A stretch of 64,000 nt of DNA from Flavobacteriaceae bacterium PS02334 (lineage in GTDB: Bacteria; Bacteroidota; Bacteroidia; Flavobacteriales; Flavobacteriaceae), in assembly GCA_029959295.1 (NCBI GenBank), contig JASCOH010000007.1:1-64000 (forward strand), read 5' to 3'. Shown here in pieces: positions 6,433-8,735 of the stretch (positions are counted from its first letter, which is position 1; each line of letters starts with the position of its first letter). The notes beneath the pieces are model-generated. The model did no database searches. It worked only from the letters and a program-made list of their open reading frames with translations, and was not told the DNA's origin. Position numbers and translations under genes: made by a program.

Positions 6433-6460
6433 ATGCAAAATAATTAAATTCAAAAATATT

Positions 6461-6492
6461 TAAAGTAATATTGCCGTTCGTCCGTCTTCCTA
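6461..6492 (+). promoter_or_regulatory. Putative ECF-sigma autoregulatory promoter
   Basis: TAAAGTAA (6461-6468), 14 nt, then CGTCTTCCTA (6483-6492). The CGTC core is the usual -10 of ECF sigma factors. Exactly the same two blocks with the same 14-nt spacing recur three times before the Hsp20 operon (from 7546, 7628 and 7710), which argues that this sigma factor reads both. Confidence 0.7.
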
Positions 6493-6519
6493 TTTATGAA
6501 TGCAGACGTAACATCAAAT

Positions 6520-7071
6520 ATGAGCGACAATTCAAAAAATACGATTTCAAATACCATTTCCAAATTCGGAAAAGGCTTGACTTCCTTCATCCGTGGAAAG
6601 GTCAGCAGTTCTGAAGATGCCGAAGATATCGCGCAGGAAGTCTGGTATCAGCTGAGTAATTTTTCGAATATTGACGACATTGAAAGTATCAGCGGTTGGC
6701 TTTACCAGGTCGCCAGAAATAAAATCACTGATTTGTATCGGAAGAAAAAGCCAGAACCGTTAGAAGATTATTCATATGAAAATGATGAAGGCGAGTTTTC
6801 TTTTAAGGAAATTTTGCTTTTGGATGATTCTGAAAATCCAGATCTGGCACTTTTTAAAGAATTATTTTGGTCAGAATTGCTAAAAGCTTTGGAAGAATTG
6901 CCCGAAAATCAGAAGCAGGTTTTTATCTTAAATGAAATTGAGGATTTTACCTTGCAGGAAATTGCCGATCAAACCAATGAAAATCTCAAGACAATCATCA
7001 GCCGAAAAGGATATGCCGTGAAGTATTTGAGAAAGAAACTGAATTATTTATATCAAGAATTAAATTATTAA
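6520..7071 (+). CDS. ECF-family RNA polymerase sigma factor
   Basis: A 183-residue group IV sigma factor. Region 2 is visible as SSSEDAEDIAQEVWYQLSNF and GWLYQVARNKITDLYRKKK, region 4 as LPENQKQVFILNEIEDFTLQEIADQTNE with its helix-turn-helix. The frame is open from ATG 6496, but the predicted promoter places transcription start at about 6494-6497, so the ATG at 6520 (MSDNSKNTIS), which also matches family N-termini, is preferred; a leaderless message from 6496 is possible. No classical zinc anti-sigma gene follows. The small membrane protein encoded 10 nt downstream is the best candidate for a membrane partner. Confidence 0.92.
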   Translation: MSDNSKNTISNTISKFGKGLTSFIRGKVSSSEDAEDIAQEVWYQLSNFSNIDDIESISGWLYQVARNKITDLYRKKKPEPLEDYSYENDEGEFSFKEILLLDDSENPDLALFKELFWSELLKALEELPENQKQVFILNEIEDFTLQEIADQTNENLKTIISRKGYAVKYLRKKLNYLYQELNY

Positions 7072-7081
7072 AACTATAAAA

Positions 7082-7417
7082 ATGGAAAGACCGATCAGAA
7101 ACAACAGAAGAAGAAAACCTTTCTTTTTATTCATAATTGCTGGAATTTTTATTCTGGGCGCTGTCATAATGCTTTTGTGGAACGCAATTCTTCCGGATGT
7201 TTTGGGAGTTGCTGCAGTAAATTATTGGCAGGCTTTAGGATTATTAGCGCTCTCAAGAATACTTTTTGGAGGTTTTAAATTCGGACCAAGAGGAAATAGA
7301 GGCAGTTTTGGCAATCCAAGATTCAAGGAAAAATTTATGAATATGTCACGAGAAGAACGAATCGACTTTCGAAATCAATGGAAAGAGCGATTTCATAGAA
7401 GAAAAGATAACTTATAA
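7082..7417 (+). CDS. Small membrane protein, possible sensor or anti-sigma partner
   Basis: A 111-residue protein with a very basic start (MERPIRNNRRRKPFF), two hydrophobic segments (about 14-35 and 43-60) and a cytoplasmic-type charged tail. Its tail (GPRGNRG, FGNPRFKEKF, NMSREERIDFRNQWKERF) resembles that of the product at 7772 (GPGRFGGPRF, NMDEEEYNAFKSNFENR), so the two are probably related. Ten nucleotides separate it from the sigma gene and a terminator follows, so the two form an operon. No known family is recognised with certainty. A role in holding or releasing the sigma factor is an inference from position. Confidence 0.75.
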   Translation: MERPIRNNRRRKPFFLFIIAGIFILGAVIMLLWNAILPDVLGVAAVNYWQALGLLALSRILFGGFKFGPRGNRGSFGNPRFKEKFMNMSREERIDFRNQWKERFHRRKDNL

Positions 7418-7424
7418 AATAACG

Positions 7425-7453
7425 AAACCATCAGTGAAAGCTGGTGGTTTTTT
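7425..7453 (+). terminator. Rho-independent terminator of the sigma operon
   Basis: AACCATCAG (7426-7434) pairs with CTGGTGGTT (7441-7449) around a 6-nt loop, followed by T residues. Confidence 0.8.
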
Positions 7454-7469
7454 GTTTTAGGAAACTTTG

Positions 7470-7540
7470 ACCGCAGATTCGCAGATTTCTAATTTCCAGT
7501 AGTAAAGAAAAAATCTGCGAATCTGCGGTATTTTTTTTTC
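7470..7540. repeat. Perfect 19-bp inverted repeat with T-run
   Basis: Arms 7470-7488 and 7511-7529 are perfect inverted copies (core CCGCAGATTCGCAGATT), with a 22-nt loop and a following run of ten T. It lies just after a normal terminator, so it is not needed to end the sigma operon. It may be a dispersed palindromic element of REP type or a second terminator insulating the next promoters. Confidence 0.75.
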
Positions 7541-7545
7541 GAAGT

Positions 7546-7577
7546 TAAAGTAAAATCAAATTACAAACGTCTTCCTA
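7546..7577 (+). promoter_or_regulatory. Putative ECF promoter, copy 1
   Basis: TAAAGTAA 7546-7553, 14-nt spacer, CGTCTTCCTA 7568-7577. Confidence 0.6.
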
Positions 7578-7627
7578 AATATAGAAGAAATGCAAATTAG
7601 AGGCTTTCAAAAAAAAGTAAAATAATT

Positions 7628-7659
7628 TAAAGTAAAATCTAAAAGCAAACGTCTTCCTA
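7628..7659 (+). promoter_or_regulatory. Putative ECF promoter, copy 2
   Basis: TAAAGTAA 7628-7635, 14-nt spacer, CGTCTTCCTA 7650-7659. Confidence 0.6.
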
Positions 7660-7709
7660 AATATAGAAGAAAATGCAAATAGAAGCTTTCAAAAAAAAGT
7701 AAAATAATT

Positions 7710-7741
7710 TAAAGTAAAATCTAAAAGCAAACGTCTTCCTA
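7710..7741 (+). promoter_or_regulatory. Putative ECF promoter, copy 3 (nearest the operon)
   Basis: TAAAGTAA 7710-7717, 14-nt spacer, CGTCTTCCTA 7732-7741. It is 30 nt from the ATG at 7772. Confidence 0.65.
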
Positions 7742-7771
7742 AATAAATAACAAATACTAAAAATAAAAAAC

Positions 7772-8062
7772 ATGAAATCTATTTTAAAATCAATCGCAGT
7801 CGGAATCTTAATTGGAGCATTGGCATTTTTTGCTTTCAAATTAATAATCACCTTTTTCATCATCGGGGCAATAATGAGCCTTTTTGCCAGAAGAAGATTC
7901 TCACGACAAGGATTTGGTCCAGGCAGATTCGGCGGGCCACGTTTCGCTTTCGCAGATAAAATCAGAAATATGGACGAAGAAGAATACAATGCTTTCAAGT
8001 CAAATTTTGAAAACCGAGGCTGTGATCGCCGCAACCAAACGAAAAATAAAGAAACAAAATAA
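7772..8062 (+). CDS. Small membrane protein related to the product at 7082
   Basis: A 96-residue protein with one long or two short hydrophobic helices (about residues 5-40) followed by a basic Gly/Phe/Pro-rich segment (RRRFSRQGFGPGRFGGPRF) and an acidic-aromatic motif NMDEEEYNAFKSNFENR. The order TM, GPxxxGxFGxPRF, NMxxEExxxF matches the small membrane protein beside the sigma gene. First gene after the triple promoter array; 18 nt before the His-rich peptide gene. Function unknown; an envelope-stress role is inferred from the sigma factor and the Hsp20 gene in the same unit. Confidence 0.7.
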   Translation: MKSILKSIAVGILIGALAFFAFKLIITFFIIGAIMSLFARRRFSRQGFGPGRFGGPRFAFADKIRNMDEEEYNAFKSNFENRGCDRRNQTKNKETK

Positions 8063-8080
8063 TTTAAACACAAAAACATC

Positions 8081-8299
8081 ATGAGAAGAAAACCTAAATT
8101 TTTACTGGCTTTCGCCGTTGCAATAATCACTTTCGGAAGCTTAAAAGCTTTTGTTCCAAAAGAATTTCAAGAGCACAATCACTGCAGACCTACAGAAAGT
8201 TGCGGTGGAAACTTTGAAAATCACAATCACGGGCCACATTTCTCCCACGAAAAAGAAACTAGAAATGAAATTAATAACAATTTAAATCAAGAAAAATAA
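8081..8299 (+). CDS. His-rich small exported protein
   Basis: A 72-residue protein with a signal-type N-terminus (basic RRKPK then a hydrophobic stretch to about residue 24) and a short mature part rich in His, with two Cys (EHNHCRPTESCGG, ENHNHGPHFSHEKE). At least seven His and two Cys in about 35 residues suggest metal binding, which is inference; no family is recognised. It lies between the small membrane protein gene and the Hsp20 gene with 1 to 18 nt spacers, so co-transcription is very likely. Confidence 0.6.
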   Translation: MRRKPKFLLAFAVAIITFGSLKAFVPKEFQEHNHCRPTESCGGNFENHNHGPHFSHEKETRNEINNNLNQEK

Positions 8300-8300
8300 T

Positions 8301-8735
8301 ATGTACAAAAATCAAAATAGAACAGAATTTGCACAAAACTGTGGTCCTGCACAAAATAGAAAAGATCATTTCGTAAGATTTATGAACTACAAATTGCAAC
8401 AAAAGCAAGATTTCAAAAGGCCAAAATACAACGTTCCTTTAAATATCATTGAAACTGAAGAGGAATTTGAAATTCATGTATTTGCAACGGGATTTTCTAG
8501 AGAAGATATAAAAATCACAGTGACAGATGATATTCTTTATATCAAAGGCAAAAAAGAAATCGACGAAGAAAATGCTCCAAATTTCAGCAGACAAGAATTT
8601 CCAATCAAGAATTTTGAAAGAACTTTATCTTTAAATCGAAGCGCCGATGCAGAAAACATTACAGCTTCCAGCGAAAACGGAATTTTGATCATCAAACTTC
8701 CTAAAGCAAAAAAACAGATTATCGAAGTAAAATAA
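8301..8735 (+). CDS. Small heat shock protein, Hsp20/alpha-crystallin family
   Basis: A 144-residue ATP-independent holdase that keeps unfolding proteins soluble. The alpha-crystallin domain covers about residues 45-144: YNVPLNIIETEEEFEIHVF, GFSREDIKITVTDDILYIKG and the signature SENGILIIKLPKA. The C-terminal IxI-type anchor appears reduced to IIEV. The N-terminal 40 residues are short and Gln/Asn-rich. It starts one nucleotide after the stop of the His-rich gene, so translation is probably coupled. Control by an ECF factor instead of the usual heat-shock systems is suggested by the triple promoter upstream. Confidence 0.93.
   Translation: MYKNQNRTEFAQNCGPAQNRKDHFVRFMNYKLQQKQDFKRPKYNVPLNIIETEEEFEIHVFATGFSREDIKITVTDDILYIKGKKEIDEENAPNFSRQEFPIKNFERTLSLNRSADAENITASSENGILIIKLPKAKKQIIEVK

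Follow-up and report, generated by a model that had tools for sequence, protein, structure and literature searches.

A conserved promoter-like motif accompanying an ECF sigma factor gene, its small neighbor protein A and an Hsp20 clade in Bacteroidota

The sigma factor locus and its promoter-like sites

The analyzed window is a stretch of 64,000 nt from contig JASCOH010000007.1 of Flavobacteriaceae bacterium PS02334. The region under study contains two neighboring units in the order promoter, sigma factor gene, gene A, hairpin, palindromic repeat, three promoters, gene B, gene C and Hsp20 gene. The following elements were distinguished:

6460..6494, + strand: promoter of the sigma-A operon, TTAAAGTAA-N14-CGTCTTCCTA; exact match, with boxes and N14 common to relatives
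6520..7071, + strand: ECF sigma factor gene (PF04542, 2e-10; PF08281, 2.9e-10), second ATG taken as start
7082..7417, + strand: protein A (111 aa), candidate anti-sigma factor; C-terminal two-helix tail preceded by two hydrophobic helices
7424..7451, + strand: terminator-like hairpin between the two units; 12 pairs, then a T-rich tail
7542..7745, + strand: 82-bp tandem array with three promoters (TRF and repeat search)
7545..7577, + strand: second-unit promoter, copy 1 (exact motif match; repeat alignment)
7627..7659, + strand: second-unit promoter, copy 2 (exact motif match; repeat alignment)
7709..7741, + strand: second-unit promoter, copy 3, closest to the genes (exact motif match; repeat alignment)
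7772..8062, + strand: protein B, 96 aa; N-terminal half hydrophobic, C-terminal tail A-like; A3 family
8081..8299, + strand: protein C (72 aa); His/Cys-rich tail behind a hydrophobic N-terminus
8301..8735, + strand: Hsp20 of the promoter-marked clade (PF00011, 3.8e-20; tree)

The palindromic repeat is a dispersed one and lies between the hairpin and the promoter array. Terminator-like hairpins occur three times in the region, with 1.7 expected. A further in-frame ATG at 6496, upstream of 6520, is located approximately at the expected transcription start of the sigma gene. Most likely the gene starts at 6520, at the ATG that is common to the relatives.

A preliminary description of this locus had named an ECF sigma factor and an Hsp20, and the family matches agree with both (PF04542 and PF08281 for the former, PF00011 for the latter). 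The sigma protein scores above the cut-offs of PF04542, PF08281, PF04545 and TIGR02937, and no region-3 family was detected in Pfam at E 0.1. With sigma regions 2 and 4 present and region 3 absent, as in ECF (group IV) factors, it is an ordinary ECF sigma factor by domain content. Among the NCBIfam matches listed none reached an equivalog cut-off, and a numbered ECF group for the factor may already exist. The alpha-crystallin domain of the Hsp20 lies well over the family cut-off (PF00011, 72.3 bits against 20.8). For the three small proteins encoded at 7082–7417, 7772–8062 and 8081–8299, neither Pfam nor NCBIfam gave a match at E 0.1. The first of these genes, protein A, is located directly 3’ of the sigma gene and was absent from the preliminary description.

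Exact TAAAGTAA-N14-CGTCTTCCTA sites are located at 6461, 7546, 7628 and 7710 on the forward strand: as had been described, one before the ECF sigma gene and three in the 82-bp tandem repeat. When up to three mismatches were allowed, the same four sites were all the matches in the window, with 0.11 expected from 100 shuffles. The four-site pattern is not due to chance. In the whole genome (4,585,233 bases) they are the only exact matches. Two further sites have three mismatches (L005 and L006), and a looser pattern, TAAAGTAA-N13-15-CGTC, matches six times including the four window sites. The regulon search in this genome thus came to four other sites, L005, L006, L128 and L129, and gave no convincing target beyond those in the window: L005 is inside a 265-codon reading frame, L128 is also inside a reading frame, and L129 has no gene downstream on its strand. 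No frame of 90 codons covers L006.

Canonical ECF promoters have a two-box form with a CGT core in the -10 and AAC in the -35 element (available text of PMC8103513). The CGT core is present in all four window sites as CGTC. The AAC is absent, the -35 box being TAAAGTAA in each of the four. Most relatives in the spacing scan described below carry AAAGTA or AAAATA at this position.

The motif and protein A in related genomes

A search for relatives of the sigma protein returned 43 loci. Eleven of them (L007–L017) are close, with 52–90% identity, and are labeled Flavobacterium, Bacteroidales, Chitinophagales, Saprospiraceae and other Bacteroidota; the remaining 32, at 21–28%, are ECFs. Among named relatives, the closest found was Flavobacterium endophyticum DSM 29537 (L007), whose sigma factor is 90% identical and which shares many of the surrounding genes. 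Related genomes were searched for the motif, as the preliminary description had proposed, and it was found before sigma genes and often before a second operon. In 12 of 15 scanned loci (the eleven relatives and four genus loci) at least one site matched at least 14 of the 17 box positions, and in every site of these 12 loci the spacer is 14 nt long, though 13–15 were permitted. One listed site of L014 (3336) falls inside a gene; this locus has a site before B and none before sigma. L052–L054 stay below the 14/17 threshold and show weaker sites in a position weight matrix (PWM) search before A, which is the first gene there. In the window and in relatives the same motif is seen before the sigma operon and before the second operon. 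As far as can be read from sequence, boxes and spacing are conserved across the Bacteroidota sigma relatives while the spacer sequence changes. The early reading of the boxes therefore stands in so far as a conserved promoter-like motif accompanies the sigma factor; it had missed protein A, the tail shared by A and B, and the His/Cys theme.

Across the phylum, a profile of protein A matched 62 of 395 sampled genomes and 45 of 170 genera (E 0.001). We assembled 68 loci from 52 A matches (up to 6 kb on each side), the window, L007–L017 and L051–L054; the nine weakest of 63 A matches and L092 (genome G456) lie outside this set. In all 68 loci an ECF gene that matches the sigma profile overlaps A or is separated from it by no more than about 120 nt. 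The sigma gene comes first in 62 and A in six, and in five loci the ECF matches the sigma profile only weakly (E 1e-15 to 1e-20). No A match was found in 57 control loci of ordinary ECFs.

The spacing of the two boxes was scanned in the same 68 loci with AAAGTA (one mismatch)-N-CGTC, in which CGTC was fixed by design; in the protein-based search for relatives it was free. A spacer of 14 occurs in 33 loci and one of 15 in five (shuffles: 0.3 and 0.15), and each of the remaining spacers from 5 to 25 in 0–4. A PWM trained on 25 sites from the 68 loci found a site scoring at least 10 before the operon in 42 of them, including 17 of the 43 outside the training set, and in none of the 57 controls, in which there was no promoter-like site in the 150 nt upstream (best PWM score 2.3). 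Such a site is absent in 26 of the 68 loci. Distinct PWM sites are strongly biased in orientation, with 67 sense versus 4 antisense.

Raw motif counts do not exceed those of a reversed-pattern control in the phylum genomes (18 versus 27) and barely do so for the short pattern in 20 relatives (69 versus 64; our own sums). The argument is therefore carried by the placement of the sites and the company they keep. Among phylum genomes with a motif match 11 of 14 carry A, as opposed to 51 of 381 others (Fisher p = 1.6e-7), and for the reversed pattern, counted by reading, A was present in 6 of 25 matching genomes (p = 0.25). A survey of 398 genomes at the genus level gave 28 motif places versus 15 for the reversed control (our own count): four in the window, two in G716, one in G601 and 21 others. 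G716 and G601 both have sigma and A. Seven of the 21 others were examined, of which L192, L195, L197, L203 and L213 lie within genes and L194 and L205 do not.

Because short-pattern counts resemble the control, sites unlinked to a sigma gene were accepted only with agreeing gene content. This applies to G562, G468 and G441, where the site precedes an Hsp20 unit, and to G522, where it precedes a B-like gene. Phylum sites in G456, G279 and G247 are inside genes, and that of G417 lacks a downstream gene; these four were taken as chance matches. Motif sites of a TetR/TolC context were seen in G460 and G290.

The second operon, its promoter array and the Hsp20 clade

A second promoter within 3 kb behind A was found in 22 of the 68 loci, 18 of which have a match to the B profile. 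A short C-like gene follows B in ten loci other than the window (L007, L009–L014, L138, L140 and L147); counted over the loci with a second unit examined in detail, C follows B in 10 of 16, plus L007, whose second unit has C behind B and no Hsp20. The tails of A and B are similar to each other over 30 columns (hhalign probability 90.6, E 1.3e-6). The structural model of B, of low confidence (pTM 0.27), shows one long N-terminal helix and tail helices at 56–65 and 69–94. In G522 the gene behind an exact site was judged B-like by its tail.

In the window the second operon is preceded by the array (TRF: 7545–7745, period 82, 2.5 copies, 94% matches). Aligned without gaps the copies begin at 7542, 7624 and 7706, with copies 2 and 3 being 87% and 63% identical to copy 1, and copy 3 diverges from the repeat beyond its promoter. 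Between copies 1 and 2, spacer and leader differ and the boxes are identical. Functional constraint had been proposed from boxes that are kept while the spacer changes. The conservation between species does show such constraint, whereas the copies of the array say little about it, since recent duplicates keep their boxes without selection; the argument from the tandem copies alone was dropped.

More than one copy of the second promoter is found in the window only: the other 21 loci have one each. L007 and G716, which have the same spacers, carry a single promoter before B. Tripled promoter and linked Hsp20 both set the window apart from its nearest relative. Tandem duplication in the lineage of the window probably gave rise to the triplication, which may raise promoter strength. 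That it is neutral instead, a product of slippage or of assembly error with no effect on expression, we regard as only somewhat less probable than not. It is found in this genome alone, the array is intergenic, the source assembly consists of 69 contigs, and the dispersed palindromic repeat just 5’ of the array is perhaps a sign of unstable sequence. Against this, both boxes are intact in all three copies, and copies 1 and 2 are non-identical, so that the array is not a simple artefact of repeated reads.

An Hsp20 gene is linked in 9 of the 68 loci, not counting one that lies 5.6 kb upstream in L184. The nearest relatives, L007/G716, have no Hsp20 in the second unit, and the sole Hsp20 of G716 is a non-marked one. 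Hsp20 is thus not an obligate part of the module. Conversely, in G562, G468 and G441 an Hsp20 and a small membrane protein are encoded well away from the sigma gene and have the motif upstream of them, and in G446 the sigma gene and the Hsp20 gene are each preceded by it. When the 700 nt upstream of Hsp20 genes were scored for the motif, nine scored at least 15.7, one scored 5.5 and the rest -2.9 or less, with a background maximum of 2.1 (138 windows). Thirteen Hsp20s were labeled as promoter-marked before a tree was built: the nine scored ones, those of G294 and G441, whose sites have a spacer of 15 and were assigned by eye (both also appear in the motif search of 20 relatives), and those of G333 and G275, which lie further down longer operons.

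The tree comprises 57 Hsp20s, 56 from 28 chosen genomes and that of L016. All 13 promoter-marked proteins form one clade (support 97/90), including three that are unlinked to a sigma gene. The mark requires one change on the tree versus 11.9 in shuffles, and none of 500 shuffles was as low. The N-termini of the marked proteins contain 10.7% His plus Cys versus 1.2% in the other 44 (p = 1.6e-7, with related sequences treated as independent), and Cys occurs there in 9 of 13 versus 2 of 44. In this comparison the N-terminus of the G385 protein was miscut and received a score of 0; frames lacking a clear start were taken unchanged.

Protein A and the proposed circuit

The model of protein A shows hydrophobic helices at 9–41 and 48–61 and tail helices at 79–86 and 90–110, with blocks of pLDDT 77–90 in the tail and low overall confidence (pTM 0.29). 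Hydrophobic and positively charged residues suggest the membrane placement and sidedness of A and likewise of B. The A profile has no match in the PDB at E 1. No class I anti-sigma domain was found in Pfam for the A of the window, and 14 members of the family gave only weak matches to two unrelated Pfam families.

We consider A a candidate anti-sigma factor. Alternatively, A could be a membrane protein with an output or accessory role, and the sigma factor could be regulated through its own abundance or through proteolysis. The lack of a recognized anti-sigma domain and the tail that A has in common with B, the product of an output gene, are in favor of this, as is G446, where motif, sigma and Hsp20 are present and no A was found; A is therefore not obligate. 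We nevertheless judge the accessory role unlikely, as all 68 examined A genes lie beside an ECF gene in both gene orders, five of the six loci with A first have a promoter site scoring at least 10 before A, and in canonical systems the ECF gene shares a transcript with that of a membrane anti-sigma factor (available text of PMC8999054). A further alternative, in which the boxes are bound by another regulator or sigma factor and the neighboring ECF gene is just one of the genes it controls, draws on the several further ECFs per genome (nine matches in the source genome, up to 16 elsewhere) and is very improbable, since the motif tracks A among genomes and the reversed pattern does not, it is missing upstream of all 57 ordinary ECF loci, and it has the ECF-type two-box form with the CGT core in the -10 box (PMC8103513, available text).

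Taken as a candidate anti-sigma factor, A fits a circuit that we regard as likely, in which an ECF sigma factor regulates itself, has a partner anchored in the membrane and controls a narrow proteostasis regulon of two operons with a shared motif. The sigma factor would recognize TTAAAGTAA-N14-CGTCTTCC, a motif whose conservation is observed and whose recognition we infer. It would transcribe its own operon including A as well as the second operon with B, C and Hsp20, here from three tandem promoter copies. Most likely, A would use its C-terminal two-helix tail to keep the sigma factor at the inner membrane in an inactive state and release it upon stress, a role suggested by how the genes are paired, by the predicted fold and by what holds for canonical ECFs. 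B has an A-like tail and would be made only once the system is on, and so may act, speculatively, in feedback or as a decoy. The His/Cys-rich N-terminus of the Hsp20 and the His/Cys-rich protein C suggest, again speculatively, metal or oxidant stress that aggregates proteins as the trigger; the circuit is possibly metal- or redox-triggered. A possible, rather doubtful extension would be that A founds a new kind of anti-sigma factor with a membrane hairpin and a C-terminal two-helix tail, that B is an induced decoy with the same tail, closing a feedback loop, that a dedicated metal-binding Hsp20 clade and C protect proteins from metal or oxidant damage, and that promoter amplification adds strength in this species.

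In comparison with canonical pairs of an ECF and a membrane anti-sigma factor such as RpoE-RseA, sigma regions 2 and 4, the CGT -10 motif at the own operon and the small co-directional membrane partner are alike. The -35 box differs (AAAGTAA here, AAC there), and so does A, which has no class I domain match and whose soluble part is C-terminal, after two hydrophobic helices. In CnrH-CnrY a short two-helix element of the class II anti-sigma factor CnrY binds the sigma factor (available text of PMC7406223). The two-helix tail predicted in A resembles this, but the A profile matches no PDB structure or sequence at E 1. Sigma-E and sigma-H of M. tuberculosis control the Hsp20 gene acr2. This is an ECF-dependent small heat-shock protein, as is proposed here for the Hsp20 of the window; the phylum differs, and acr2 has several regulators (PMC3976341, in the part available). 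The Bacteroides systems SigH-1, SigR-1, EcfO and Das1-Dma1 are stress-related ECFs of the same phylum, compared here by description only; Hsp20 has no occurrence in the available text of PMC12596196. In the accessible text of the open-licence literature, outside which most subscription papers lie, we found no description of this sigma type together with A, B, C and the Hsp20 clade.

According to the available part of a survey, a class I anti-sigma neighbor accompanies only 6% of the ECFs in Bacteroidetes versus 32% across phyla, and other modes of control, e.g. other anti-sigma classes, are suggested to dominate in Bacteroidetes (PMC7406223). Protein A is a concrete and, by its number of genomes and genera, widespread candidate for such control and, if this is true, would help to explain how Bacteroidota ECFs without class I neighbors are controlled. 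As its motif and sigma factor are defined and its targets few, the module is directly testable. A switch with the same promoter appears to occur in many Bacteroidota, the threefold promoter in this genome only, and one Hsp20 clade goes with a single promoter type across distantly related families of the phylum.

Dispersed palindromic repeat next to the promoter array

Between the terminator-like hairpin (7424..7451) and the first promoter copy of the 82-bp tandem array (7545..7577) the window contains one pair of the following element:

7470-7529, and many further genome positions: palindromic repeat ACCGCAGATTCGCAGATTT, located by genome-wide pattern matches

With up to 2 mismatches allowed, 40 forward and 35 reverse matches were found in the strain's own genome, where the reversed control sequence gave 0 matches at the same tolerance. 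The repeat is dispersed, and inverted pairs are frequent. The pair is absent from the corresponding stretch of Flavobacterium endophyticum DSM 29537, the closest named relative found.

Variation in gene order and content

Protein A, the candidate anti-sigma factor, precedes the sigma gene at six loci (L052, L053, L054, L149, L170 and L176), the first four of which come from the genus of the window. In five of the six a promoter-like site scoring at least 10 (PWM) lies ahead of A, the exception being L170. At L189 (G446:C75) we noticed the variant order motif-sigma-motif-Hsp20; protein A was not found in this genome. L138 and L140 both carry a similar gene of ~126 aa between the His/Cys-rich peptide C and Hsp20, which by eye resembles the start of a glycosyltransferase.

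Motif-like sites at TetR- and TolC-like genes

Motif-like sites were also observed at two further loci, both gene labels being assigned by eye: at L265 (G460) the site lies 94 nt upstream of a TetR-like regulator, behind which comes a TolC-like gene, and at L271 (G290) it lies 75 nt upstream of a TolC-like gene. These sites may represent additional targets, or else chance occurrences.
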